A stretch of 64,000 bases of DNA from a bacterium. GTDB taxonomy: Bacteria; Armatimonadota; UBA5829. Both the position numbers and the translations under genes were made by a program. The stretch lies in the NCBI GenBank assembly GCA_021371935.1, contig JAJFVF010000002.1:372001-436000 (forward strand), given 5' to 3'. Below the pieces are notes generated by a model that saw only the letters and a program-made list of their open reading frames with translations, did no database searches and was not told where the DNA came from. Within the stretch, counting starts at the first letter, position 1, and the number at the start of each line of letters is the position of its first letter. This document shows positions 34,975 through 48,290 of this stretch, in pieces.

Positions 34975-35676
34975 TTATCCAAAGACTTCAACAGCCGCTG
35001 ATGCAAAGGCCTTCTCGAGAATGACTGGATCAGAAAAGGCCCCTAGTTCCTTCAGCGTAACAATAAAGTCACTATGGCTCCTACCATCTCGATAATCCGG
35101 TTCCTTTGATGGGTACTTCAAAACATCTTCCATCAACTTGCGATCTATATCGACCAGCAGTGTTCCATGCAAAAGTATCGATTTCCACTTGCGAGCCTGT
35201 GCATTACCGGAAACCTTAAGCTCGCCTACAGCAACATCGGATACACCACGCTGCCAGGCGTTCACACCAAATCGAGCAAGGACTTTAATAATCAGATCGG
35301 CACCCTGCCTGAATACTCTGTCCATATCCATCCGGCCACCGCTTGGTGCTGTGTACGAATAGTTGAATACGCCGGGAGTCTGTAGGACTGTCCCGCCGCC
35401 GGTGATTCTTCTGACCCATTCGATTCCACGCTTTCGACATTCATCGAGATTTAGCGCCAGCTCGGGTTTGTCTCCACAACCGAGAACAATAGTAGGACCA
35501 CTGCCCCACCACAATCGTACAGTCCGATTGCCACTTCGAGCAGCGCATTGAGCGAACTGCGCGTCTATCTTCAGGTTTGCATCGACAGAAGGTTCCGACC
35601 AGCGAATTACCTCTAGGTTTCCCGATGAGCAAATATGTCTCATCTGCTGATATTCAACAACATTATCTGGCTGCAT
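34975..35676 (-). CDS. Lipoate-protein ligase/octanoyltransferase family protein
   Basis: 233 residues of the BPL/LPL fold. Visible motifs: 'RRITGGGTV' (89-97) for lipoate/ATP binding, Lys154 in 'GELKVSGNAQ' at the position of the catalytic Lys, and 'LLHGTLL' (168-174). There is no C-terminal accessory domain, so the protein is short like LipM/LplA-single types. The family attaches octanoyl or lipoyl groups to a lysine of carrier domains. It is the last gene of the ArsR operon and overlaps the CcdA-like gene by 14 bases; the likely target is the H-protein domain encoded at 37922-38764. Which reaction it does (ligase or transferase) cannot be told from sequence. A start at 35643 is also possible. 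Confidence 0.85.
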   Translation of the reverse strand: MQPDNVVEYQQMRHICSSGNLEVIRWSEPSVDANLKIDAQFAQCAARSGNRTVRLWWGSGPTIVLGCGDKPELALNLDECRKRGIEWVRRITGGGTVLQTPGVFNYSYTAPSGGRMDMDRVFRQGADLIIKVLARFGVNAWQRGVSDVAVGELKVSGNAQARKWKSILLHGTLLVDIDRKLMEDVLKYPSKEPDYRDGRSHSDFIVTLKELGAFSDPVILEKAFASAAVEVFG

Positions 35677-36361
35677 AAATCAGATAGACTCCACCAAGCA
35701 TTACCAGCACTCCGCATATTCTCTTTACAATATTGGCGCCCTTTGATCTCTCATTCCAATTCAGGTAGTTCTGGACTGCTTCCGTGGAAGTGCCTGCTGC
35801 CACAATAACCGTGCAATGTCCTATTCCATAGACGGCAAGTAACAATGCGGCATAGAAAAAACTGGTAGCTGCGACCTTGAGGGAGAGTGTGAGCACAGGT
35901 GCCATATAGGCAAATGTGCATGGGCCGAGCGCGACTCCAAATACAAGGCCGAGAATGAAAGACGCCGCAAGTCCCTTACGTCTGATGTTTATGCTGCCCG
36001 GACCGGAAAACGGCATCGGGATTATGCCGACCAGGTGCAATCCGACTATGAAAAATACTGCTGCGACAATGTAGTTGCCATACTTGCCTACATCACCCAT
36101 CATTCGACCCATAGCGGCAGTCACTATGCCGATCACCGCTATAGTTATGAGTATCCCAAGTCCGAACAGGAAAGAAAGCCCGAACGCTTTTTTTGTGGTG
36201 AGGTTGCCCTGTTCGCTGATGAAACCAATTATCAGTGGGATACTTGACAGGTGGCAAGGGCTCAGGATCACGCTCAGTATGCCCCAGATGAATGAGGCTC
36301 CCAGCGCAATCGGTACAGCACCCTCCATTGCCTTGGTAAACGTTATAAAAAGATGCTCCAA
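35663..36361 (-). CDS. CcdA/DsbD-like thiol-transporting membrane protein
   Basis: 232 residues with six predicted membrane segments. The paired cysteines of this family are present: Cys36 in 'LSPCHLSSIP' and Cys148 in 'LGPCTFAY'. Proteins of this kind carry reducing power from a cytoplasmic thioredoxin through the membrane to an outside thioredoxin-like protein. The gene directly upstream (36384-36809) encodes such an exported thioredoxin and a small thioredoxin is encoded earlier in the operon, so all three parts of a thiol relay are present. Start ATG at 36361, 22 bases after the previous stop. Confidence 0.88.
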   Translation of the reverse strand: MEHLFITFTKAMEGAVPIALGASFIWGILSVILSPCHLSSIPLIIGFISEQGNLTTKKAFGLSFLFGLGILITIAVIGIVTAAMGRMMGDVGKYGNYIVAAVFFIVGLHLVGIIPMPFSGPGSINIRRKGLAASFILGLVFGVALGPCTFAYMAPVLTLSLKVAATSFFYAALLLAVYGIGHCTVIVAAGTSTEAVQNYLNWNERSKGANIVKRICGVLVMLGGVYLIYAAR

Positions 36362-36383: not shown

Positions 36384-36809
36384 TCATTTCTTTGGTTTCG
36401 CCGGCTCTTTCAGTTTTATGCCGTGGTCTTTGAAAGCCTTCACGATATCATCCTTTGAAATAAACCCCGTATGCCGGTATATCTCTTTGCCTTTGGCATC
36501 AAAGAATATTTGAGTTGGAATGCTTTGTATCTTATATTTCTTGGCAGCAGACTGGTCTTTCCAGACATCAATGAACTGAACCTCCAACTGTCCCTTATAC
36601 TCCTTTTTAAGATCATCAAGAACAGGGACCATCATTTTACAGGGTATGCACTTGGTGGCTCCGAGATCAAGGAGCTTCGGAAGTTGTTTGGCGGCAGGTT
36701 TCGCTGGCGGCTTTGGGGCCTTTTTGTCTGCTGCATAGCCGGCGGTGATGGCTGCCATTACTACAATCATCAATATCGCTGAGAATCCTTTGAGCCAGTT
36801 ATTCTTCAT
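36384..36809 (-). CDS. Exported thioredoxin-like protein
   Basis: 141 residues. A signal peptide or anchor (about 5-26) is followed by a Lys/Pro-rich linker and a thioredoxin fold with active site CIPC (Cys54, Cys57) and the cis-Pro stretch 'IQSIPTQIFFD'. It should work outside the cytoplasmic membrane, probably reduced by the CcdA-like protein encoded next. Four bases separate it from the upstream DGC gene. Confidence 0.9.
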   Translation of the reverse strand: MKNNWLKGFSAILMIVVMAAITAGYAADKKAPKPPAKPAAKQLPKLLDLGATKCIPCKMMVPVLDDLKKEYKGQLEVQFIDVWKDQSAAKKYKIQSIPTQIFFDAKGKEIYRHTGFISKDDIVKAFKDHGIKLKEPAKPKK

Positions 36810-36813
36810 TGTT

Positions 36814-37494
36814 CTATTGCCTCCTGTATTTCTTATATGCTGATATCAAAGCTGTCTTGTATACATTCTCTTCTTCAGGCTCGATCTGATGATAGATTTT
36901 TACCGTTTCAAGAAGTTTGTCTCCACACAAATCGTCAGCGGCAAGACCGTTCTCTGCCAGGTGATCGAATATGAGAGACAGTCCAGCAATTGTGACGGGT
37001 CTGCCATCAACTTCAATCACCATACCCGGAAGTGGCTTCGAGCACGCGCACTCGCCAGTATCCGCATTTTCTACCGAGCAGCAGCAATTTTCAGATATGA
37101 TTGAGTCCACTGCTTTCGCAATTTCCTCAGAAACCAGCCAGACTGCTTCTTTATCTGTTTCGGTTTGGCATTTAGCCGACCTGGCACAACACGCACCCTC
37201 GCCGTTTAGTATTTCAGAGACTACTATAGCGGCACTCACCGGCCCGCTGTGTTTTTCAGTGCCTTTCTTTGCGCATAACTTGCTGCATCCATCCACAGTT
37301 ATCGTCGGGTGCTTTGTTGCAAACTCACGCTCCGCTTCATTTCCAGCGAGGAACAATGGCAGGCAGATCGTCACCGTATTATCAGGTCGCATAAGTTCCA
37401 ACACTCTCCGGGTCGCCAGGCGGGATATGGTTCCCTCAGGTATCTCCTCACCACTGCATGATATAATTCCTACTTTGATCTCTCCGTCAGCCAC
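36814..37494 (-). CDS. DGC-domain protein with Cys-rich C-terminal extension
   Basis: 226 residues. The first 110 form a DGC (PF08859-like, 'putative zinc-binding') domain: Cys13 in 'SCSGEE', and Asp-Gly-Cys with Cys70 and Cys74 in 'VDGCSKLC'. A Cys-rich middle ('GACCARSAKC', 'ENCCCSVENADTGECAC') could bind metal or iron-sulfur. The C-terminal 75 residues are a helical domain I do not recognise ('VTIAGLSLIFDHLAENGL'). It is the longest of three DGC proteins here, 2 bases after its neighbour. No DGC protein has a function I can name with confidence; cysteine-based metal or sulfur handling is likely. Confidence 0.75.
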   Translation of the reverse strand: MADGEIKVGIISCSGEEIPEGTISRLATRRVLELMRPDNTVTICLPLFLAGNEAEREFATKHPTITVDGCSKLCAKKGTEKHSGPVSAAIVVSEILNGEGACCARSAKCQTETDKEAVWLVSEEIAKAVDSIISENCCCSVENADTGECACSKPLPGMVIEVDGRPVTIAGLSLIFDHLAENGLAADDLCGDKLLETVKIYHQIEPEEENVYKTALISAYKKYRRQ

Positions 37495-37496
37495 TG

Positions 37497-37907
37497 CTAG
37501 CTCACCTCGCCTTCGCGCTTATTACATATACCCCCGGCTATCTCGCTGACTATCGTCCAGCCGTCGTCAGCTAGCTTAGTTGCAGTGCCGGGCTCGGCAC
37601 CCCGATAATTCTTGAATGCATCCACAACTCTAATTGATCTGACGATCTTGCCTCCAGCCATCTCGACATTCTTAGCTGCACAAAGTTTGGGACAGCCGTC
37701 CACTGTGATGCAATCCATTTTCTTGATTTTTGCGAGTGCCTCTTCATCTCCCGAAACAAGCAGCGCAAGGCACATCGGCTCAAAACTATCCGGCGCCAGT
37801 TCATCCGTCACTGCATATGTGGCTTCACGAGCGATAAGCCCATGCACTTTTCCAATGCCACTGCAGGGCATTACGATTATCTTTTGTTTCTTTACATCTA
37901 TTGTCAC
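37497..37907 (-). CDS. DGC-domain protein
   Basis: 136 residues, essentially a single DGC domain: Cys15 in 'MPCSGIGKVHG', then 'VDGCPKLC' (Cys72, Cys76). Two more cysteines (46, 66) lie near. It starts 14 bases after the stop of the DGC-lipoyl fusion and ends 2 bases before the next DGC gene. Three DGC paralogs in a row point to a multi-protein complex or stepwise transfer. Confidence 0.8.
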   Translation of the reverse strand: MTIDVKKQKIIVMPCSGIGKVHGLIAREATYAVTDELAPDSFEPMCLALLVSGDEEALAKIKKMDCITVDGCPKLCAAKNVEMAGGKIVRSIRVVDAFKNYRGAEPGTATKLADDGWTIVSEIAGGICNKREGEVS

Positions 37908-37921
37908 TTAACAAACCCCTC

Positions 37922-38764
37922 CTAATTCGCTTCAGCGGCTTTCTTTTCGACGATCCTGGAGTAGGCGGCCGCGTCAAGAAGCACTTCTTTATCCGATTCA
38001 AAATCATCAAGTTCGACTTCAGCTATCCAGCCCCTGCCGTATGGATCCTCGTTTACCAACTCGGGTGAATCGACAAGTTCTGTGTTGACTGCTACAATCT
38101 TACCGGATACGGGCGATAAGGCATCCATCATCGATTTTCCTGATTCCAGAGAGCCTACCTCATCAAACTGTTCGATCTCTCTGCCTACCTCGGCAGGCTC
38201 AAAGTAGGTTATGTCGGTCAAATTCTGCTGAACAAAATCCGATACACCAATACGGGCCCTATTGCCGATTACACGAACCCAGCAGTCATTCTCACTAAAC
38301 AGGTAATCATGTGATGGAATCTTAAAAATGAATTTGTCATGGGTGACGGTTATGAAGTCAACTGGGGAGTCAAAACCGGCACTGGCTTCCTCTACAGATA
38401 TCTGTCTCGACACCAAGCACTCTTTGGATAAAAGCTCAATTAGTTGCATCCCCACCGGCCCCAGCCGCAGCGATTTGCCGACTTCCAGACCAGTCGTCTT
38501 CGCCTCCTCCGATATCAGTACCTTATCGTCTACCTTAAGGCCGAGCTTATTGGCGAGCTTTGAGGCGCAACGAGTAGGACAACCATCAACCACCAAGAGC
38601 GACGATTCAGCCAGAGTCTTTTCATATCTGTCGGGAGAGTTGTTGAGCAAAACAGGGCAGATAATCTCCGTCCCTTGTGTTTCAGAGAGCTTTAGTGCCA
38701 GTTCTCGCGCGAGCGATCCAAATTGCTTATCCATACCATTACAAGATAAAACTGCACGCTTCAT
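37922..38764 (-). CDS. DGC domain fused to a lipoyl H-protein domain
   Basis: 280 residues. Residues 1-110 are a DGC domain with Cys8 ('LSCNGMDKQFG') and Cys62/Cys66 ('VDGCPTRC'). Residues about 135-270 match the GcvH/lipoate carrier fold: 'CWVRVIGNRARIGVSDFVQQ', the lipoylation loop 'LESGKSMMD' with Lys210, and 'LSPVSGKIVAVN', 'LVNEDPYGRGWI'. No gcvP, gcvT or lpd gene is in the window, so it is not a glycine-cleavage carrier by context. A lipoate-ligase-like gene lies in the same operon. The dithiolane on Lys210 could exchange with the DGC cysteines of the same chain. Its ATG overlaps the ferredoxin stop by 4 bases. Confidence 0.85.
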   Translation of the reverse strand: MKRAVLSCNGMDKQFGSLARELALKLSETQGTEIICPVLLNNSPDRYEKTLAESSLLVVDGCPTRCASKLANKLGLKVDDKVLISEEAKTTGLEVGKSLRLGPVGMQLIELLSKECLVSRQISVEEASAGFDSPVDFITVTHDKFIFKIPSHDYLFSENDCWVRVIGNRARIGVSDFVQQNLTDITYFEPAEVGREIEQFDEVGSLESGKSMMDALSPVSGKIVAVNTELVDSPELVNEDPYGRGWIAEVELDDFESDKEVLLDAAAYSRIVEKKAAEAN

Positions 38765-39048
38765 TGCTCCCCTTCTTCCTCGCGGATCTGTTTGATCTTT
38801 GCGATGGTCTCAGGTTTGCTGGGAAATGAGATGGCATCCGGGCCGCATGTCTTCGCACATGCTCTGCAAAAGACGACGCAGTTGTGCGGATTTGCGACCA
38901 CCAGCTTGGGATTTTCATCACGCCGCTCAAACACCTGGTGAGGACAAAACTTGTCGCACTCCATGCAAAAGTCACACTTTGAATAGTCGATGGTCGGGCA
39001 CCAGTCTATCTTCTCGCGCTTCACGCCCATGAACGTGTCATCAGCCAT
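38761..39048 (-). CDS. 2[4Fe-4S] ferredoxin
   Basis: 95 residues from the ATG at 39048, chosen for the GGAG four bases upstream; longer versions run deep into the previous gene. Two clusters are expected: Cys25, 28, 31, 35 (C-x2-C-x2-C-x3-C) and Cys57, 61, 64, 68 (C-x3-C-x2-C-x3-C). An additional Cys17 exists. It overlaps the HdrA-like gene by 8 bases and the fusion gene by 4. It likely supplies or takes electrons in this pathway. Confidence 0.9.
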   Translation of the reverse strand: MADDTFMGVKREKIDWCPTIDYSKCDFCMECDKFCPHQVFERRDENPKLVVANPHNCVVFCRACAKTCGPDAISFPSKPETIAKIKQIREEEGEQ

Positions 39049-39418
39049 CCTGCTCCACCCCCATCTCAGAAAGCGCTTTGGACACTTTCTCGACCGCTTC
39101 ATCCGTGGTCATCTCGCGGATATCCAGCGGGATCATGTCAGTTTTGATATCCATTCCTGCAGCTTCAAAGGCGTCACGGAAAAGTTTCATCTGCATATTG
39201 GGAGCGCAGCCGGCGATCACCAGCTTCCTCTTTGCCTTGAGCATATCGGCAAGGAATCGGTCACCATCTTCTTCACAGAGTTGCGGATGAATAAATCCAT
39301 ATTCCACAGGCAGTTCCACACGCACTCTGTTGATGAAGTCCCAGATGTCCATTTTGGCAAATCCAGGACACTTGCCGGTGCATACGCACATAATCAGTCC
39401 AGGCAGTTGATCGGTCAT
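39041..39418 (-). CDS. Stand-alone HdrA N-terminal-like protein
   Basis: 125 residues resembling the N-terminal domain of heterodisulfide reductase subunit A: 'IMCVCTGKCPG' (Cys11, 13, 17), 'HPQLCEEDGDRFL' (Cys48) and 'KLVIAGCAPNMQMKLFRDAFE' region (Cys71). In HdrA this domain precedes the FAD part; here the flavin and ferredoxin parts are absent, while a separate ferredoxin is encoded next. GGAGG stands 7 bases before the ATG, and the start directly abuts the thioredoxin stop. Iron-sulfur binding is plausible. Hydrogenase or reductase subunits are not encoded nearby. Confidence 0.75.
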   Translation of the reverse strand: MTDQLPGLIMCVCTGKCPGFAKMDIWDFINRVRVELPVEYGFIHPQLCEEDGDRFLADMLKAKRKLVIAGCAPNMQMKLFRDAFEAAGMDIKTDMIPLDIREMTTDEAVEKVSKALSEMGVEQDG

Positions 39419-39664
39419 TTAGTCACCTCCAGCAGCAAGGATCAGCTTCTTGATATCTTCAGGGGAAAGCACCCGTCCCGCCGCTTTGACTTCGCCATCG
39501 ATAACCAATCCCGGCGTCATGAGGATATTGAACTTCATGATCTCTTTGATATCCTCAACTTTCTCGATTTCAGCATCTATCCCAACAAGCTCGACGGCTT
39601 TCTTCGCGTTCTCAGCAAGCGTTTTACACTTGGCACAGCCTGTGCCAAGAACCTGTATCTTCAT
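39419..39664 (-). CDS. Small thioredoxin family protein (TM0996 type)
   Basis: 81 residues from the ATG at 39664, where AGGAGG lies four bases upstream; the upstream extension covers the regulatory region. Active site CAKC (Cys10, Cys13) and 'FNILMTPGLVIDGEV' with the cis-Pro. This family ('redox-active disulfide protein 2') often follows ArsR-type regulators and permeases. Cytoplasmic; probable electron donor for the CcdA-like protein. Confidence 0.9.
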   Translation of the reverse strand: MKIQVLGTGCAKCKTLAENAKKAVELVGIDAEIEKVEDIKEIMKFNILMTPGLVIDGEVKAAGRVLSPEDIKKLILAAGGD

Positions 39665-39733
39665 ACAACCTCCTATATATTGGCTAATTTCGCAATCTGC
39701 CAACTAGTCAATAAAATAATATGCGGGTAAGGG

Positions 39734-40060
39734 CTAACATACACAAGATATTATTTGTTCTTTTGTTTTAGCGTCTTCTTTCATCACTGCTTCAATACAA
39801 CTGAAGAACTTGATAATGCAGGGCACGCGCAGGCGATAGAATACCTGCAGACCGACCTTTCGATCATCAACAATCCCTGCATTCTTCATCACGGATAAAT
39901 GCTTGGATACTGTGGAGATATCGGCTCCGACCAATCCGGTGAGTTCACATACACATTTTTCACCTTCGGCAAGCGCATCAACCATCATCAGGCGGCTCGG
40001 GTGAGCTAACGCCTTGATAATCTTTGCTTTCATCTCATATTCTAGCTTGTTTGTATTCAT
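39734..40060 (-). CDS. ArsR family transcriptional regulator
   Basis: 108 residues from the ATG at 40060 (AGGAG close upstream); a TTG at 40096 would add 12 residues but lies inside the likely operator. Winged helix-turn-helix with 'VGADISTVSKHLSVMKNAGIV' as recognition part. Cys36-x-Cys38 in 'GEKCVCEL' is the ArsR-type CxC sensor motif; Cys81, 88, 106 and 108 add thiols. Members sense As(III), metals or persulfides and release DNA. No arsenic genes are near, so a sulfur or redox signal is equally likely. It may bind the TTGG-N8-CCAA elements at 40080 and 40459. Confidence 0.9.
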   Translation of the reverse strand: MNTNKLEYEMKAKIIKALAHPSRLMMVDALAEGEKCVCELTGLVGADISTVSKHLSVMKNAGIVDDRKVGLQVFYRLRVPCIIKFFSCIEAVMKEDAKTKEQIISCVC

Positions 40061-40079
40061 ACGCTCCTGTCGCCTTGTT

Positions 40080-40097
40080 GTTGGCAAGTCAACCAAC
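40080..40097. promoter_or_regulatory. Putative operator 2 (GTTGG-N8-CCAAC)
   Basis: Five-base inverted arms separated by 8 bases, 20 bases upstream of the arsR start. The core TTGG-N8-CCAA is shared with the element at 40459-40480. A third region at 39680-39703 has TTGGC and GCCAA half-sites, but 14 bases apart. Confidence 0.45.
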
Positions 40098-40143: not shown

Positions 40144-40410
40144 CTATTTTTCTAGTTCATGCTTTATATGTTGATATTCTTCTTTGGTGATTTCTCCCTC
40201 AGCATATCGACACTTGAGGATTCCTAAAGCATCCGGCATGCCGCAGCTCATCATGCCCTTCATTTTGCCACAAATCTTGCCCATCAGCTTATGCCCTCCG
40301 GCCATCATAATAGCCATCATTGCCGTGCAACAAGCCATACCGCCCAACGCTCCCCAAAGCATGTTGCGAATCCTGTTCGCCCGCTGAGGAGTATCATCAG
40401 ATCGAATCAC
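40144..40410 (-). CDS. Small membrane protein with SHOCT motif
   Basis: 88 residues, GTG start at 40410 with GAGG 10 bases upstream (an ATG at 40362 is possible). One hydrophobic, Met/Gly/Cys-rich segment (about 17-40) and a C-terminal SHOCT-type helix pair ('LKCRYAEGEITKEEYQHIK'). It is the first gene behind the promoter at 40467-40494 and precedes arsR. Cysteines at 26, 27, 47, 56 and 66 could respond to metals or thiols. Function unknown. Confidence 0.7.
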   Translation of the reverse strand: MIRSDDTPQRANRIRNMLWGALGGMACCTAMMAIMMAGGHKLMGKICGKMKGMMSCGMPDALGILKCRYAEGEITKEEYQHIKHELEK

Positions 40411-40458: not shown

Positions 40459-40494
40459 TATTTGGTATGTTAGCCAAATATGCTGTAGTGTCAA
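40459..40494 (-). promoter_or_regulatory. Promoter with overlapping operator 1 (TATTTGG-N8-CCAAATA)
   Basis: Minus-strand TTGACA (40494-40489), 16 bases, TAACAT (40472-40467). A 7-bp inverted repeat with an 8-base spacer (40459-40465 and 40474-40480) covers the -10 box, a position typical for repression. The N8 spacing equals that reported for persulfide-sensing ArsR relatives of the SqrR/BigR type (from memory). Confidence 0.6.
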
Positions 40495-41090
40495 CCTGGT
40501 TTTTGAGAATCCGACGGCGCACAGTCTCAAATTGACCTCAAACAGATGTAAATGATGCATGAACTGTAGGATTTCCTCTCTTAATAAAGTGGTAGAAGAA
40601 ATTACACATCTATGCGATTACTAAGGCCGCGAGGGATGGTGATAAACTTGACAGCTTCTGGTAACACATCCGCACAACCCGCAGACATTGAGAGACCACA
40701 TAGGAAAGTGACGGCTTGACTTGGGACCAAAGTTGATAGTCGTTGAAGATATGTCTTTGCAATGTTCAGACAGTAACCCTGCCAGGATGTAAGTGAGTAG
40801 TAAAAATTGGCTGTAAGGAACTTGAAAAGAAACACTGGTAAGCTTGTTGCTTGCTATATAATGAAATTCAAAAGTTCTAATCGCTATTAGAATTAAGCTC
40901 AATATCCTGTTCGGTTTCTGGTTTATCTATAGTTTTTTCAATAGCTTTGTTTAACAAAGCAGATATTAATTGCCCGTTGACGATCTAGTCATGTAATGAT
41001 ATATTGCAAGCAGCAGAGCTTTTACTTATCTTCTGCAGTTTTACCTCGTTTTTTTGCATTGATCTTCTTACTACTAACATAGAGGGCATT
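40495..41090. other. Intergenic stretch with no recognised gene
   Basis: About 600 bases between the divergent operon promoter and the subtilase start. Short open frames here lack ribosome binding sites and resemble nothing I know. A TTGACA at about 40648 has no fitting -10. I see no convincing element. Confidence 0.5.
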
Positions 41091-44000
41091 ATGGTGAAGA
41101 AAATCCTGTCTGTGATATCAGTGTTTGTCACTCTTTCCTGTTGTTCGACGGCTATTGCGATTGCTTTAGATGACGCTGGGCAGGCAACAAATGCCGAACT
41201 ACAAATGCCGACGTCCAAGCCAAAAACGCAGGGAAGTTCCTCCGAGTTTGTCGCTGGAGAAATAATCGTTAAGTTCAAATCCACCGCGGCAGCGGGTATT
41301 GTCAGCACAGCGCAGAGTATTGAGGCATCGCAGTTAGTACCTTCATTGCAAAGCTTATCGAGGCTGAATACCAGATATAAATTGAAGGAGATGGAAGCCC
41401 TTTTTAAGTCTGTTTCTCGTTCCGAGCAGCGCAAAATCAGTGAAGGAAGAAAAGGTATATTCAAACAGGATTCCACGGAGCAAAGTCGAGGCTTTGAAAA
41501 GATTTTCAAACTCAAATTCGATAAAGATGCCGATGTGCAACGTATTGCCCAAGCTTATGCCCTTAATGAAAACGTCGAGTTTGCCCAACCGAACTATATT
41601 TATAAAGCCGATATGGTCCCAAATGACTACTATTACAACACCGATCTGCAGAATCTGCCAGTTCATTCTTGGTTCCAATCGTATCCTGATCTTTGGGGGA
41701 TCAAGCAAATAGACTGTGAACAAGCATGGGATTATGCACAAGGTGAAGGTGTGGTAGTAGCCGTTGTAGACACTGGTGTAGACCGCAGTCATCCGGATTT
41801 GGCAGACAATATGTGGACCAATTCAAACGAAATTCCCAATAATGGCATTGATGATGACGACAATGGCTATGTGGATGATGTTTTCGGCTGGAATTTCTGC
41901 AACAATACAAATGACCCGAGTGATGACTATGGTCATGGCACACACTGTGCCGGCACTATTGCAGCGATAGGCAATAACAGCATAGGCGTCATCGGTGTTG
42001 CTCCACAAGCAAAGATTATGGCACTCAAATTCCTCAGTTCAAGCGGTTCGGGAACCAGCGATAATGGCGCTCTTGCAATTTGCTATGCCGCTGACAACGG
42101 TGCAAAAGTAATAAGCAATTCCTGGGGGTCTGATGGTACCACATCTAATCCTGTGATTGAAAATGCAATAGATTATGCAAGATCACTGGGATGTGTAGTA
42201 GTTGTGTCTGCCGGCAACTCAAATCATGATGTTGCCAACGCTTCACCGGCAGGTTATGCACCTGCAGTTACCGTGGCCGCACTAGATTATCAAGATTGCA
42301 GGGCTTATTTCTCGAATTTTGGCAGCGGTGTGGATGTTAGCGCTCCTGGCGTCGATATCCTTTCGCTCAGAGCCAGTGAAACAGATATATATAAAAATGG
42401 CGGAAGCCAAGTAGTCGACAGCATCTATTATAGAGCAAGTGGAACGAGTATGGCCTGCCCACATGTGTCGGGAGCAGTTGCCGTGATAATGTCAAGCCAT
42501 CCGGATTGGACCAGTGACAAGGTTGAAGAATTTCTGACACATACCTGCGACTGTATTGATGAAACCAACCATGATTATGTGGGTTTGCTTGGATATGGCA
42601 GAGTTAACCTGTCAAATGCGATATTGACCGATAGCTCACAACCGAACCTGAACATATCACGGATTGATACAAACGAATTATCCGGGAACCTGGACGGTAA
42701 GATTGATCCTGGCGAATCAATTGTAATGAATCTAACTCTGAAAAACATCTGGCAGGATGCGAGCGGTATCTCGGCATTAATCTCCTCGACCGATCCATAC
42801 GTAACCATTACGTCCGCAGAAGCGATATATGGCAGCATTGAAGAAGGACAAACCGCGAGCGAAGACTACTCTTTCACCGTATCTGCGGATGCGCCATATG
42901 GCCATTCTCTTGATTTCAGTCTTGAGATTACGGCGGATGATGATTACTCGGTCACTCGGCATATAGGTATTATGATTCCATGGCCTGTGAGATCAGGATG
43001 GCCTAAGAATATTGTGCCCAGCAGTATAACTCCAGTGGATGTCGATGGGGACGGAATCAAAGAAGTGATTATAACAGGCGAAGATATGCTCGGCATATAT
43101 ACCGCTGCTGGCACCTCATATAGCTCTGTGTGGCCCATGAGTGTTCCGAGCATTCGGCATGATCCAAGCATCGGTGACATAGATGGCGACGGTCAGGCAG
43201 AAATTGTGTATCCCACGTTAGGCGCTAGCGGCAGCCGGTCCAAAATCTATGCATATAAGCTTGACGGAACTTTTGTTCAGGGATTTCCTGTACAGATGCA
43301 AAAAACATCGGATATCAGCCAGGTGGTTTTAGCGGATATTGACATGACCTCGCCCGGCTTGGAACTGGTGCTGACAACCGAGTATTACGGAAGTTCAACT
43401 ACTGCGAGTAGTGCGGCATTATATGTGCTCTACGGAAACGGCCAGGTGAAGAGTGGGTTCCCCTATCAGTTCGGCAATGCGGATACCGTATTTTATGATG
43501 CCAACGGGTCTATTGCTGTGGGAGATATAGATAACGATGGCAAGCCAGAGATAGTGGTTGGTGCATATGAACCGGAGTGTGCGAAGTTCTACGCTTTTGA
43601 TACCGATGGGCAGATCAAGGATGGGTGGTCATGCACTTTTTCGGATAATATGAAGCCTATGAATATTGTAATGGGTGATCTGGATAATGACGGCAAGAAA
43701 GAGATTGTTATTTGCACGGCGATAAACACGGTTGTTCTCACTAACGATGGGCAGCTATACAACTCAAATTGGAATAATATACAAATTCCCGGCTCTTCGC
43801 TTGCTTTGGGCGATTTGGACGGAGATGGCGACCTGGAGATTGTCATTGGTGCCGGTCTCAAATTAATCTATGCGTTTCATCATGATGGCACACCAGTAAA
43901 CGGATGGCCTGTGGACAGCAAGGGATACAGTAATTTTGCTGGAGCTGTGGTGGGAGCTATTGGTGATATCGACAATGATAGGGAGATGGAAGTAATTACT

Positions 44001-47000
44001 TCCTGTAACTCGCGAATTACTGTATTTAAACCAGACGGCACGCCAATGGCAAGCGCAGACCCATTGGCCGAAACATCCATAACAGACTCCAGCATGGTAA
44101 ATTTTCTTTGCTTACCATCAATTGCGGATATGACGGGCATTGGCTGCCTAACTGTTTTGGGGGGCATACGTGAGGCGGATGGCTATGTCTGCTTGTGGGA
44201 TTGCACAACGTCAGGCTACACAGACAACATAGCCTGGGCAATGCAGGGCCACGATCCACAGCGTACTGGCTGCTATGACGGATTACCTGGGCTTAAGGGT
44301 CTCAAAGTCGGACCCAACTACGGTATAACATTCAGGGGATCGGTAAACGGCCCGTTTGATTCGACAAGTAATACCTATAAACTGTTCAATAGCAGCAGCG
44401 CTGATTTGAACTGGTCCGCCTCATCCGATCAAAACTGGGTTACCGTTTCTCCTGCAAGTGGGACAATACCTGCCGGTGGATTGACTTTAGTAAGTGTTCT
44501 GCCTACTTCGGAGGCTTTGGCGAAACCTGCAGGTAACTATGCTGCCTCGATTACATTCACCAATTTGACGACCAGTGTAGGAAATACCAGTCGGCCTGTG
44601 AGTCTGGTCGTCAGCAATGGCATTCTAGCTGTCACTCCTGCTGCTACCTTCACTTCATCAAGGCAGCCGGGTGGACAGATAACTCCGAGATCATGCACCT
44701 ATACTATTACCAATACCGGATACGCAAATATGAGCTGGTCTGCAGCGAAGAATGCGGATTGGATATCGCTATCAAAAAGCAGCGGTACATTATCACCTCA
44801 GGAAAGCACAACCGTTACAGTGTCAATTCTCAGCTCTGCAGACAGTTTTGCGGCGGGCACCTATACGGATACCATAACATTTACAAATACTACAAACGGT
44901 ATAGGCAACACTACTCGATCTGTGATATTGACTATCACAGCCGGATATCTGTCTGTGACACCGTATACAGAGCTGCTTTACATAGGTGAGTCCGGCGGAC
45001 CGTTTAGCACATCAAATGATACATACATTCTGGAGAATACTGGTTACAGCAGCATATCATGGACTGCCTCAAAGGAACAAAACTGGTTGGCTTTGTCATC
45101 CGAATGTGGCACGCTTTTACCCGGTGAAAGCACAACCATTATTGCTTCGGTCAACTCCGATGCCAATACTCTAGTCAATGGTGTTTATTCCGACACAATC
45201 GTGTTTGCAAATGTCACCAACGGCACGGGCAACACCACTCGCCCCGCTAAATTGGCAATCGGCAAAATAGTCTATGTTGACATTAACTGTATAGGTTCTA
45301 TCCATGACGGCAAGTCCTGGTCTACGGCGTATAGAACAATTGCCGATGGACTAAAAGTGGCTGTAACCGGACAAGAGGTCCTGGTGGCAGGCGGTGATTA
45401 TGGTGAACGTCTTTCGCTCAAGAGCGGTGTTGCAGTTAGAGGCGGCTATAATGCGTCGGACGGCACCAGAGATATCAGTGGAAATGTAACGACTATCAAA
45501 TACGTTTTTGGAGCTGATTCGTCTATACTCGATGGCTTCACAATTTCCGGGATTGCAACTAATGGTGTCTTCTGCGGCGACGCTTCTCCGACAATCATTA
45601 ATAATACTATTATAAACCATCAAACCTCAGGCAATAGTTATGGCGTATACTGCACTGGCAGTATGAGTAATCCAACGATCAACGGAAATCGATTCGCCAC
45701 AAGTGACTATGGGATTTTCTGTAATGCATCAAGCAGCGCAGTCATAACAAACAATATCAGTGACGGCAATAATATTGGGATTGCAACTGAAAATGCTAAA
45801 GCAAGGATTAATAACAACCTTATTATCAATGCCAGCTCTGGAATAACTACGAATGCAAGCAATGGAATCACTACAAGTGGATTAGAGATCAGCAACAATA
45901 TAATCTGTAATTGTAGTACTGGAATACTTGCAAGTGCAAATGGCACTGCGCCGATGCTTTCAAATAATGTCCTTTTTAGCAACGGAACAGATTATGATGG
46001 CATCACGATCCATTCGAGCGACATACACGCCGATCCGATGCTGTTAGATGCTGAAGCCGGCGATTTTCATATACCGTTTGACTCACCTTGTATCGATGCA
46101 GGAACCTCCATAAATGCGCCTGAAGACGATGCAGACGGAAATCTGCGGCCTGTTGACGGCAATGGAGATGGCGTTCCGGCAGTCGATATAGGACCATATG
46201 AAGTGCCTTGGATGATCAGAGGGTTGGTTGTAACACCATCGACTGGCCTCAATATAATAGCGAATTCTGGCGGTCCTTTCAATCCTTCTAGCATTACATA
46301 TACTATAAAAAACATCAGCAGTTCAGATATTGACTGGACTGTTTCTAATAGCCAGAATTGGCTGAGTTTGTCTGCACTCGGAGGATGCCTTGCTTCCGGA
46401 CAGATCACAACAGTTACCGCATCGCTTAATACAAATGTATCGAATCTTGCAAATGACGCATATGAAGACACCCTCATTTTTACCGATCTGACTACAGGTG
46501 AGGGGACTACTACACGATCCGTGAAACTACTTCTCGGTGCAGTATATGTAGATGTAAATTCCGTCAGCAGCGTCCATGACGGCAAGAATTGGGATACGGC
46601 ATTCCTTACGGTACAGGAAGGCGTGGATAAAGCCGTGCCGGGTCAAGAAGTGTGGGTTGCGCAAGGTACATACACCGAGAAAAATATAATCATTTCAAAG
46701 AACATCACGCTTAAAGGGGGATTTTTAGGTTCCGGTATCACGCGTGATATAGATGAATACAAGACAATTATTCAGAGTCCATCGACCCGCGCATTTTGGG
46801 TTAAAAACTTATGTACCATCGATGGTTTTACAGTGTCTGGGGGCGATCAAGGTATTTTTCTCAGCCATGTTCCAGCCGTTATTACAAACAACACATTTAT
46901 TGAAAACGAGGACAAGAGTATAAGCTGTTCCTGCAGTAAAGGTGCAATAATAGCTAATAATAAGTTTGTTAATGAAAAAATCGATGCCATATCAACATAT

Positions 47001-48290
47001 AAGAGTTCACTTACAATTACCGATAACACATTCAGTAATTGCTGGAGAGCGATATGGGTAGGGTTTGAAGGTGCGGTGTCTGTACAAAGCAACAAAATCT
47101 TTGGGGGCAGATCTGGAATCAGTTTTTTTGAGTCACCGATGATGTCGATATACAACAACCTAATTGATGGCTGTACCTATCAAGGTATACAAACGAGCAA
47201 CGCAGGTTCCGTGATGAATAACACGATTGTAAATTGCGTTTGGGGTATTAAGTGTAATGGCACAATATTACCATACGTTGCTAACAATATTTTTGCATAC
47301 TGTGATACGGCCATTTGCACTTCGATCACAGGATATACAATAAATCTTGTAAGTAATGATGTGTATAGATGCGAAACGTCCTATGACCCAACGAATATAC
47401 GACATGCTACAGATTTGGCATGTGATCCTTTATTCTTTGATATGTCAGCAGGTGATTACCATCTTCTACCTGGCTCAGGTTGTATTGATGCAGGCGATAC
47501 GAGCAGAGCACCATCTGATGATATCGACGGCTTGGCACGACCAAGAGACGGAGATGGCGATGGAACTGCCGTAGCAGATATAGGCTGCTATGAAGCTCCA
47601 CACAATTATATGGATCTACCCAGTACTAAGAGCGTTCCCGACGGCTCACCTGTGGGCATCGCATGCTACACAACAACTGCTGCTTTCTCCGACAGATTTT
47701 ATGTCGAAAGTGCCGATAGAGTCAGCGGAATCGGTGTTTTGGGAACAGTGTCCGGCACAGGAAAGACCGTTACAGTCGAAGGCACAATGAATACGGTGGA
47801 CGGGGAACGCGTTATTACGAGTTCTTTGGTTAATGAATGTGCCAATACATCTATACCGCTGCCTTTCTATATGAATCTTAACGCGCTCGGCGGCGGACTG
47901 CTTGGATTGCAGTGTGCTGTTCAGGATTATCGCGTAATCAAGCATTTTGACGATAATGATCAACCGTATTGGTCAAGGGATTTGTTCACAAACGGCGGAG
48001 CGAATAACATAGGGCTGTTGGTCAAAACTACAGGGCGAGTTACAAGAATCGCAAATGACGTGTTTTACATAGATGATGCAGTTAGTTTCGATGACGGTGA
48101 TATAAATCTAAAAGGCATCGCAGTTGCTTGGCCGTTTGGCGAGGAGACGATGCCGCCAGACGGCGCACTAATTGATATTCTGGGAATCAGCAGTTGTACC
48201 ACAAAAAACGGAATTGTGGTGCGCATGCTCAGACCAGTCTCTGAAGACTCCTATACATTAATCCAGAATGTAATTATTCCAAGTGATTAG
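41091..48290 (+). CDS. Giant secreted subtilase with FG-GAP, BACON-like and beta-helix domains
   Basis: 2399 residues from the ATG at 41091 (AGAGGG just upstream, signal peptide immediately after); an upstream ATG at 41004 would hide the signal. Order: signal peptide (1-25), fervidolysin-type propeptide (about 50-170), S8 peptidase (170-520) with Asp227 (VVDTGVD), His282 (GHGTHC) and Ser453 (SGTSMACPHV); beta region (540-630); FG-GAP/VCBS-like repeats (635-1067); three BACON-like units (1076-1390); parallel beta-helix (1394-1705); fourth BACON-like unit (1710-1813); second beta-helix (1817-2170); OB-fold-like end (2177-2399). No LPXTG, PEP-CTERM or type IX signal is obvious. Probably a secreted or surface protease with carbohydrate- or surface-binding parts. 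Confidence 0.9.
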   Translation: MVKKILSVISVFVTLSCCSTAIAIALDDAGQATNAELQMPTSKPKTQGSSSEFVAGEIIVKFKSTAAAGIVSTAQSIEASQLVPSLQSLSRLNTRYKLKEMEALFKSVSRSEQRKISEGRKGIFKQDSTEQSRGFEKIFKLKFDKDADVQRIAQAYALNENVEFAQPNYIYKADMVPNDYYYNTDLQNLPVHSWFQSYPDLWGIKQIDCEQAWDYAQGEGVVVAVVDTGVDRSHPDLADNMWTNSNEIPNNGIDDDDNGYVDDVFGWNFCNNTNDPSDDYGHGTHCAGTIAAIGNNSIGVIGVAPQAKIMALKFLSSSGSGTSDNGALAICYAADNGAKVISNSWGSDGTTSNPVIENAIDYARSLGCVVVVSAGNSNHDVANASPAGYAPAVTVAALDYQDCRAYFSNFGSGVDVSAPGVDILSLRASETDIYKNGGSQVVDSIYYRASGTSMACPHVSGAVAVIMSSHPDWTSDKVEEFLTHTCDCIDETNHDYVGLLGYGRVNLSNAILTDSSQPNLNISRIDTNELSGNLDGKIDPGESIVMNLTLKNIWQDASGISALISSTDPYVTITSAEAIYGSIEEGQTASEDYSFTVSADAPYGHSLDFSLEITADDDYSVTRHIGIMIPWPVRSGWPKNIVPSSITPVDVDGDGIKEVIITGEDMLGIYTAAGTSYSSVWPMSVPSIRHDPSIGDIDGDGQAEIVYPTLGASGSRSKIYAYKLDGTFVQGFPVQMQKTSDISQVVLADIDMTSPGLELVLTTEYYGSSTTASSAALYVLYGNGQVKSGFPYQFGNADTVFYDANGSIAVGDIDNDGKPEIVVGAYEPECAKFYAFDTDGQIKDGWSCTFSDNMKPMNIVMGDLDNDGKKEIVICTAINTVVLTNDGQLYNSNWNNIQIPGSSLALGDLDGDGDLEIVIGAGLKLIYAFHHDGTPVNGWPVDSKGYSNFAGAVVGAIGDIDNDREMEVITSCNSRITVFKPDGTPMASADPLAETSITDSSMVNFLCLPSIADMTGIGCLTVLGGIREADGYVCLWDCTTSGYTDNIAWAMQGHDPQRTGCYDGLPGLKGLKVGPNYGITFRGSVNGPFDSTSNTYKLFNSSSADLNWSASSDQNWVTVSPASGTIPAGGLTLVSVLPTSEALAKPAGNYAASITFTNLTTSVGNTSRPVSLVVSNGILAVTPAATFTSSRQPGGQITPRSCTYTITNTGYANMSWSAAKNADWISLSKSSGTLSPQESTTVTVSILSSADSFAAGTYTDTITFTNTTNGIGNTTRSVILTITAGYLSVTPYTELLYIGESGGPFSTSNDTYILENTGYSSISWTASKEQNWLALSSECGTLLPGESTTIIASVNSDANTLVNGVYSDTIVFANVTNGTGNTTRPAKLAIGKIVYVDINCIGSIHDGKSWSTAYRTIADGLKVAVTGQEVLVAGGDYGERLSLKSGVAVRGGYNASDGTRDISGNVTTIKYVFGADSSILDGFTISGIATNGVFCGDASPTIINNTIINHQTSGNSYGVYCTGSMSNPTINGNRFATSDYGIFCNASSSAVITNNISDGNNIGIATENAKARINNNLIINASSGITTNASNGITTSGLEISNNIICNCSTGILASANGTAPMLSNNVLFSNGTDYDGITIHSSDIHADPMLLDAEAGDFHIPFDSPCIDAGTSINAPEDDADGNLRPVDGNGDGVPAVDIGPYEVPWMIRGLVVTPSTGLNIIANSGGPFNPSSITYTIKNISSSDIDWTVSNSQNWLSLSALGGCLASGQITTVTASLNTNVSNLANDAYEDTLIFTDLTTGEGTTTRSVKLLLGAVYVDVNSVSSVHDGKNWDTAFLTVQEGVDKAVPGQEVWVAQGTYTEKNIIISKNITLKGGFLGSGITRDIDEYKTIIQSPSTRAFWVKNLCTIDGFTVSGGDQGIFLSHVPAVITNNTFIENEDKSISCSCSKGAIIANNKFVNEKIDAISTYKSSLTITDNTFSNCWRAIWVGFEGAVSVQSNKIFGGRSGISFFESPMMSIYNNLIDGCTYQGIQTSNAGSVMNNTIVNCVWGIKCNGTILPYVANNIFAYCDTAICTSITGYTINLVSNDVYRCETSYDPTNIRHATDLACDPLFFDMSAGDYHLLPGSGCIDAGDTSRAPSDDIDGLARPRDGDGDGTAVADIGCYEAPHNYMDLPSTKSVPDGSPVGIACYTTTAAFSDRFYVESADRVSGIGVLGTVSGTGKTVTVEGTMNTVDGERVITSSLVNECANTSIPLPFYMNLNALGGGLLGLQCAVQDYRVIKHFDDNDQPYWSRDLFTNGGANNIGLLVKTTGRVTRIANDVFYIDDAVSFDDGDINLKGIAVAWPFGEETMPPDGALIDILGISSCTTKNGIVVRMLRPVSEDSYTLIQNVIIPSD

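Follow-up and report, generated by a model that had tools for sequence, protein, structure and literature searches.

A DGC domain fused to a lipoyl H-protein in a putative arsenic-response operon of Armatimonadota

The window, a 64,000-nucleotide stretch of an Armatimonadota genome, carries on its minus strand an operon in which a DGC domain and a lipoyl H-protein domain are joined in one polypeptide. Read along that strand, the genes encode a SHOCT-domain protein, an ArsR regulator, an ArsE-type thioredoxin-like protein (Trx3), an HdrA_N-like protein, a ferredoxin, the DGC–H fusion, two further DGC proteins (DGC2 and DGC3), a thioredoxin, a DsbD/ArsG-like membrane protein, and a lipoate-protein ligase (LplA). 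The intergenic gaps range from -17 to +47 nt, the overlap of 17 nt being smaller should the conserved ATG be the true ferredoxin start, and the fusion ORF shares a 4-nt overlap with the upstream ferredoxin gene. The features are as follows.

40459..40480, no strand: operator-like palindrome TATTTGG-N8-CCAAATA, ahead of the SHOCT gene and the operon (pattern search)
40144..40410, minus strand: small SHOCT-domain protein, probably the first gene of the operon (PF09851; a homologue lies beside the ars-island copy of the operon)
39734..40096, minus strand: ArsR/SmtB metalloregulator with a KCVCEL motif (C48, C50; NF033788, E 1.8e-24)
39419..39703, minus strand: MTH895/ArsE-type thioredoxin-like protein (CAKC; TIGR00412, E 1.9e-31)
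39041..39418, minus strand: stand-alone homologue of the HdrA N-terminal domain, 125 aa with five cysteines (profile against PDB)
38761..39048, minus strand: two-cluster ferredoxin-like protein (PF00037 and others)
37922..38764, minus strand: DGC–H-protein fusion, 280 aa, ATG start (ORF and Pfam)
38501..38755, minus strand: DGC domain of the fusion, residues 4-88, with invariant C8, C36, C62, and C66 (Pfam, alignments)
38381..38491, minus strand: linker, residues 92-128, little conserved (pLDDT <50; length varies in the alignment)
37943..38299, minus strand: H-protein (lipoyl) domain, residues 156-274 (PF01597; superposition on 1htp)
38135..38137, minus strand: codon of K210, the predicted lipoylation site (ESGKSMMDALSPVSG; sequence, alignment)
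37497..37907, minus strand: second DGC protein, DGC2 (PF08859, E 3.3e-14)
36814..37494, minus strand: third DGC protein, DGC3, with a Cys-rich C-terminal part (13 Cys; PF08859, E 7.2e-16)
36384..36809, minus strand: thioredoxin (CIPC), probably exported, with an N-terminal hydrophobic segment read by eye (PF00085, E 3.2e-14)
35663..36361, minus strand: DsbD/CcdA-type membrane protein (PF02683; best NCBIfam match ArsG NF040495, E 2.6e-13)
34975..35676, minus strand: LplA catalytic domain (RRITGGG, LKVSGNAQ; PF21948, E 6.3e-38)

Some of these assignments carry qualifications. The ArsR may have its conserved start at an internal ATG (MNTNKLEYEMK). The HdrA_N-like protein gave no Pfam match, and its assignment comes from a 12-homologue profile that matches the HdrA N-terminal domain in PDB (E 1.1e-6). 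The membrane protein reaches 49.9 bits against the ArsG model, below the cut-off of 200. Elsewhere in the window, positions 41004-48290 of the plus strand encode a predicted secreted subtilisin-like protein of 2428 aa, in which repeated BACON-like and right-handed-repeat-like segments were read by eye.

Both halves of the fusion are recognized well above model thresholds. In hmmscan, PF08859 (DGC) covers residues 4-88 (E 2.3e-18; 66.6 bits against a gathering cut-off of 27), and PF01597 (GCV_H) covers residues 156-274 (E 1.1e-32; 113 bits against 22.2), bearing out the fusion that the initial annotation had reported. The H half also passes the cut-offs of the NCBIfam gcvH models. That annotation listed C8, C62, and C66 as all three of the DGC cysteines; these residues are correct, but the set is four, since C8, C36, C62, and C66, along with D60 and G61, prove invariant when the fusion is aligned with other DGC proteins. 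The proposed lipoylation lysine, K210, was confirmed in the sequence and the alignment. Lysine occupies the equivalent position in 42 of the 44 other Armatimonadota H domains compared, and K210 and its surrounding motif are preserved in every fusion (5/5). The idea that one chain combines a dithiolane arm with a cysteine cluster is likewise supported, with a ligase encoded in the same operon.

Structure prediction places the two domains on either side of a low-confidence linker. The AlphaFold model built from 13 aligned rows (mean pLDDT 81.8, pTM 0.56) has a Rossmann-like alpha/beta domain at residues 1-90 and an H-protein fold with an additional N-terminal beta hairpin at residues 137-280. 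Between these confident domains, pLDDT falls below 50 over the ~37 residues from 92 to 128. The H half was taken from this second model, as the first (five rows) had a good DGC half and a mean pLDDT of only 54 over the H half; DGC pLDDT was about 75-94 in both. The modelled H half superposes on the pea H-protein 1htp with Z 22.8 and an rmsd of 1.0 Å over 131 residues, and more weakly on Streptococcus pyogenes GcvH-L 5a35 (Z 15.5). The placement of the two domains relative to each other is not predicted, so that the arm is held neither against the cysteines nor away from them. With such a linker, the geometry of the model therefore neither proves nor excludes exchange between lipoate and the DGC site, while a tether of ~37 residues would let the lipoyl arm reach the DGC cysteines. 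A Foldseek search with the first model gave no significant match for the DGC domain, which says nothing for a new fold. The DGC profile returned only G-protein matches from PDB, which were judged implausible, and the similarity of residues 59-113 to designed repeat proteins in PDB was dismissed as spurious.

The fusion recurs in related genomes. A search with the fusion alignment detected it in five of 291 Armatimonadota genomes: that of the window (G000), two of the same genus (G003 and G004), and two from two other families (G034 and G071). Identity to the window fusion is 75% in G004, 74% in G003, and 51% in G034. The four further homologues have the same architecture, are spread over three families of the phylum, and always have the same flanking genes. 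Chance or assembly error is therefore excluded for the window fusion, and the combination of PF08859 with PF01597 singled out in the initial annotation is shared with relatives, contrary to the absence from all of them that the annotation had named as a refutation. In a maximum-likelihood tree of the five fusion H halves and 44 ordinary Armatimonadota H-proteins, the former group together as a single clade with support 100/100, set apart by a long branch (1.22 changes per site). This fits a single origin followed by later loss or transfer, two histories that these data do not separate.

The recurrence survey covered one phylum, and other phyla were reached solely via narrow patterns and plasmid records. 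A narrow-pattern scan of genome contigs found one carrier only, Armatimonadetes bacterium UBA5829, which appears to be G003, as the locus reads the same; with patterns so narrow, the fusion may also occur in other phyla. Searches of a plasmid collection with the DGC half of the fusion and with the HdrA_N-like protein gave no matches. No paper that combines DGC with GcvH, or that places lipoyl proteins in ars operons, turned up in the open-access literature searched.

The H half is separated from glycine cleavage in most of its carriers. GcvT (PF01571) was not found in G000, G003, G004, or G034, and is present among the five carriers solely in G071; as a positive control, the same search gave matches in 11 of 14 control genomes. 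In the four genomes where GcvT was not found, the H half therefore cannot serve glycine cleavage, and this role was rejected for the fusion. The protein has the H fold and the lipoyl-lysine motif of a GcvH, with a GcvT partner in the genome only in G071. A second H-protein is encoded in G034 (L204:4131-5417, on G034:C44), despite GcvT not being found there.

Ligase genes follow the fusion within the family tested. G000 encodes both the E2 acyltransferase of a 2-oxoacid dehydrogenase and LipA, and thus makes lipoate for other enzymes. LplA/LipB-type matches number three in G000 (one generic, the operon copy, and a truncated copy on contig C5), two each in G003 and G004, and one each in four family relatives without the fusion. 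The extra LplA tracks the fusion across this family; in the clusters of G034 and G071, no LplA was found.

A palindrome links the window operon to an ars island elsewhere in the genome. The motif has a single match in the window, where the mean expected by chance is 0.01, and three sites in the 3.54-Mb genome, against none for the reversed control pattern. One site precedes the window operon and two lie in the ars island on contig C5 (L206/L207; G000:C5:92728-92749 and 93530-93551), where one of them overlaps a TTATAAT box before ArsR. The palindrome core also precedes ArsR orthologues in G003, G004, and G005, in the last of which it lies 19 bp before the ArsR gene of an ACR3-DsbD-Trx-DGC-Trx3-ArsR operon. 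Of all the observations, this shared putative operator points most directly to an arsenic regulon that includes the stand-alone operon of the window; this regulon is the strongest functional clue, and the initial annotation had missed it. The ArsR of the operon has a CVC pair, which in known ArsR/CadC proteins binds As(III)/Cd(II), and CVC-type ArsR proteins also sense Cd, Pb, and Zn.

Cluster copies lie close to arsenic genes wherever a carrier has ACR3. In all four ACR3-bearing carriers (G003, G034, G071, and G000 through its C5 copy), a copy sits 1-6 kb from the single ACR3 of the genome, with ArsM and/or ArsC close by; in the G003 island, both ACR3 and ArsM score above their cut-offs. No ars genes were found beside the operon in the window or in G004. 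In G004, no ACR3 was found, though the operon is present, so the operon can be kept without the pump. Homologues of the HdrA_N-like protein also occur in genomes without the fusion, and in 10 of 13 ACR3-bearing genomes one lies on the same contig as the only ACR3, at a distance of at most 7 kb. Such proximity is expected in 0.4% of cases per genome; the resulting P of ~4e-22 under an independence model is overstated because the genomes are related.

DGC genes of this phylum share the same kind of neighborhood. All 28 Armatimonadota DGC loci that were read (28/28) have as a neighbor an ArsE-type thioredoxin, an ArsP-like permease, a thioredoxin, DsbD, or ACR3, the ArsP identity having been confirmed on one protein. 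In G005, the whole operon consists of ArsR-Trx3-DGC-Trx-DsbD-ACR3. Weaker-scoring tandem DGC pairs adjoin a MIP-family channel in most loci read (one Pfam-confirmed), and ArsC is near in two. By contrast, the DGC genes examined on plasmids of Klebsiella, Cupriavidus, and Halomicrobium lie outside ars contexts. The domain is therefore not specific to arsenic, and we limit the arsenic link to Armatimonadota.

Other proteins were noted at DGC loci and in ars islands. A regulator at L190:3948-4715 (G234) joins a MerR DNA-binding domain to Thioredoxin_3; divergent from it runs an aquaporin-family gene, behind which come a tandem DGC pair and ArsC, and L187, L188, and L195 look similar by eye. A thioredoxin is fused to a MerB-like domain (alkylmercury lyase family) at L110:6080-7306 (G254), in a large ars island. 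DUF6951 (PF22263) recurs next to genes for DGC, ArsM, and thioredoxin, at L031:10872-11306 and in many of the phylum's ars islands, which suggests an arsenic-related role for this family. A DUF169 protein (PF02596) also recurs in ars islands (L110:8771-9541, tested; L112:10908-11666, by eye).

The genome holds a second, reduced copy of the operon. It occupies positions 7745-12469 of L064 (G000:C5:81001-97221) and adjoins ACR3-ArsC-ArsM. Here, the DGC half continues as DGC3 beyond residue ~103, with deletion of the H domain and DGC2, and LplA is truncated to 181 aa. Homologues of ArsR, Trx3, the HdrA_N-like protein, ferredoxin, thioredoxin, and DsbD remain. The H domain and LplA have decayed together, as expected if carrier and ligase cooperate, although the LplA truncation may be an assembly error. 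The copy nearest the pump is the one missing the lipoyl domain, and the window copy is intact.

Taken together, the evidence gives good support to an operon of the arsenic response that includes a dedicated lipoyl protein independent of glycine cleavage. This statement rests on the domain architecture, the dedicated operon, the shared palindrome, the lack of GcvT in four of five carriers, and a ligase that tracks the fusion. The operon very probably belongs to an arsenic response. As the best overall explanation, we tentatively favor, at somewhat less than even chances, a fusion that acts as a lipoyl carrier independent of glycine cleavage in an ArsR-controlled response to arsenic or a similar thiophilic metalloid, its carrier chemistry included.

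The proposed mechanism has four steps. The in-operon LplA would lipoylate K210, which we consider highly probable. The dihydrolipoyl dithiol would then bind trivalent arsenic, inorganic or organic, and swing on the linker, delivering its load to, or collecting it from, the four-cysteine DGC site of its own chain and of the two sister DGC proteins; this arsenic-carrier chemistry we consider somewhat less likely than not. The HdrA_N-like protein, the ferredoxin, the ArsE-type thioredoxin, and/or the thioredoxins could keep the thiols reduced. Finally, the load might exit via the DsbD/ArsG-like membrane protein, or pass to ArsM/ACR3 where these are present. We infer direct exchange between lipoate and the DGC cysteines, as had been proposed in the initial annotation, and the fusion probably passes either As(III) or electrons between the arm and these cysteines. 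The most far-reaching version, a protein-bound dihydrolipoyl arm that serves as a swinging As(III)/methyl-As(III) chaperone for the four-cysteine DGC site, within an ArsR regulon and with its own ligase, is rather doubtful. Reduced lipoate is a recognized target of trivalent arsenic (PMC6453569). For Caenorhabditis elegans DBT-1, one arrangement considered is three-point coordination of arsenic, with both lipoyl thiols and a protein cysteine as ligands; the authors note that this cysteine may be too distant from lipoate (PMC6453569).

The principal alternative, which we regard as unlikely, has the lipoyl dithiol/disulfide carrying electrons in place of arsenic. Electrons would pass from the ferredoxin and the HdrA_N-like protein to the lipoyl disulfide, on to DGC/thioredoxin thiols, and via DsbD to the exported thioredoxin, either keeping metalloid-stressed thiols reduced or reducing arsenicals. 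The operon does encode a ferredoxin, an HdrA_N-like protein, two thioredoxins, and DsbD, and the extremely oxidation-sensitive Cys44 of AnvM (PMC6650552) aligns with C36. However, redox roles usually need one vicinal pair, and four invariant DGC cysteines resemble a metal(loid) site; the operon also lacks genes for a flavoprotein or a dihydrolipoamide dehydrogenase.

A third, distinctly unlikely reading is a carrier of sulfane sulfur (or selenium) like LbpA of the sHdr system, with a persulfide moved between the DGC cysteines and an Hdr-like partner. The combination of a GcvH-like protein, a dedicated LplA, an HdrA-type domain, and ArsR reproduces the sHdr layout in outline (PMC6067878), and the ArsR of the operon matches a BigR-type ArsR model, below its cut-off. 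Nevertheless, the two conserved cysteines of LbpA are absent from the H half, the operon has no HdrB/HdrC, TusA, or DsrE genes, and the carriers have their CCG-domain genes on other contigs or at a distance. The common operator and the ACR3/ArsM/ArsC neighbors point instead to arsenic.

Two simpler roles are much less probable. A lipoylated fusion might act as a decoy that soaks up As(III) and shields the E2 lipoyl domain of the 2-oxoacid dehydrogenase, with no transfer; the cell does retain E2 and LipA, the classical arsenic target, but a sponge needs no three DGC proteins, ferredoxin, HdrA_N-like protein, or membrane protein in its operon, and we rate this as very unlikely. Slimmer still is the chance that the H fold serves protein–protein contact only, with K210 unlipoylated. 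Lipoylation of K210 is a prediction and the G034 and G071 clusters have no LplA, yet the lysine and its motif are kept in all five fusions, and the additional LplA both follows the fusion and degenerates in the copy that has lost the H domain. An ordinary glycine-cleavage H-protein, as its passing of the NCBIfam gcvH cut-off might imply, or an assembly chimera is highly improbable given the lack of GcvT in 4/5 carriers, the presence of the architecture in five genomes, and the fully supported branch of 1.22 changes per site.

If the fusion does carry arsenic on its lipoyl arm, lipoic acid, a classical victim of arsenic, would have become a cofactor for handling that element, and lipoyl proteins would have a third kind of role besides those in carbon and sulfur metabolism. 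Lipoate research has long regarded arsenic purely as a poison of the cofactor; a dedicated carrier and ligase under an ars-island operator would allow a use of lipoate–arsenic chemistry to be tested on a single purified protein. A concrete biochemical setting would also be gained for the DGC family (PF08859), whose usual annotation is just “putative zinc-binding”.

The closest parallel in organization is LbpA of the sHdr system (Cao et al. 2018, PMC6067878), a GcvH-fold lipoyl carrier outside carbon metabolism with a dedicated in-cluster ligase, an HdrA-type partner, and an ArsR-family regulator. In LbpA, two cysteines located towards the N- and C-terminal ends of the H domain are strictly conserved (PMC6067878). 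In the fusions, the H half carries C161 in some members but not in others and lacks a C-terminal cysteine, and membership of the LbpA family was rejected. The hdrC1B1A-hyp-hdrC2B2 cluster was not found at the fusion: the operon holds an HdrA N-terminal-like protein only, with the CCG (HdrB-type) genes elsewhere. A dedicated LplA-like ligase is present in the window cluster (34975-35676) and absent from those of G034 and G071. In contrast to LbpA, the window protein is fused to DGC and tied to arsenic genes and an operator-like palindrome.

The GcvH-L/LplA2 pair of the SirTM operon (Rack et al. 2015, PMC4518038; PDB 5a35) offers another parallel: in a stress operon, a GcvH-like protein that is independent of glycine cleavage is paired with a lipoate ligase specific to that operon. 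Sirtuin, macrodomain, and luciferase-like monooxygenase were not among the Pfam matches of ten window-operon proteins. The stress is also different, and the H half is much closer to canonical GcvH than to GcvH-L (Z 22.8 against 15.5).

The ArsE-type thioredoxin-like protein and the DsbD-fold membrane protein, which best matches the ArsG model below its cut-off, recall the ArsEFG system. ArsEFG, with ArsG, was reportedly described by Chen, Zhang & Rosen in 2019, and we know of no lipoyl component in it. Haft & Tolstoy are said to have described in 2025 the neighborhoods of the Tso selenoprotein and a “GcvH-related protein” (NF045810). Compared by model names, and hence as a lead only, these neighborhoods suggest an ArsR-type regulator and DsbD-like and thioredoxin-like proteins, NF045810 being a GcvH-related desulfobacterial family, against which the H half scores 31 bits where the cut-off is 150.

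The DGC half has a studied counterpart in AnvM of Pseudomonas aeruginosa, so the statement in the initial annotation that the family lacks a known role goes too far. AnvM has the same PF08859 domain with four cysteines, and the residue that aligns with C36, Cys44, is the most oxidation-sensitive cysteine reported in the P. aeruginosa proteome (PMC6650552). Protein recovered from inclusion bodies contained no significant Zn, Cu, or Fe (PMC6650552). AnvM differs from the fusion in being a stand-alone, redox-linked regulator with no lipoyl domain. Lipoyl carrier–ligase pairs are already known; it is the setting and the fusion to DGC that are new.
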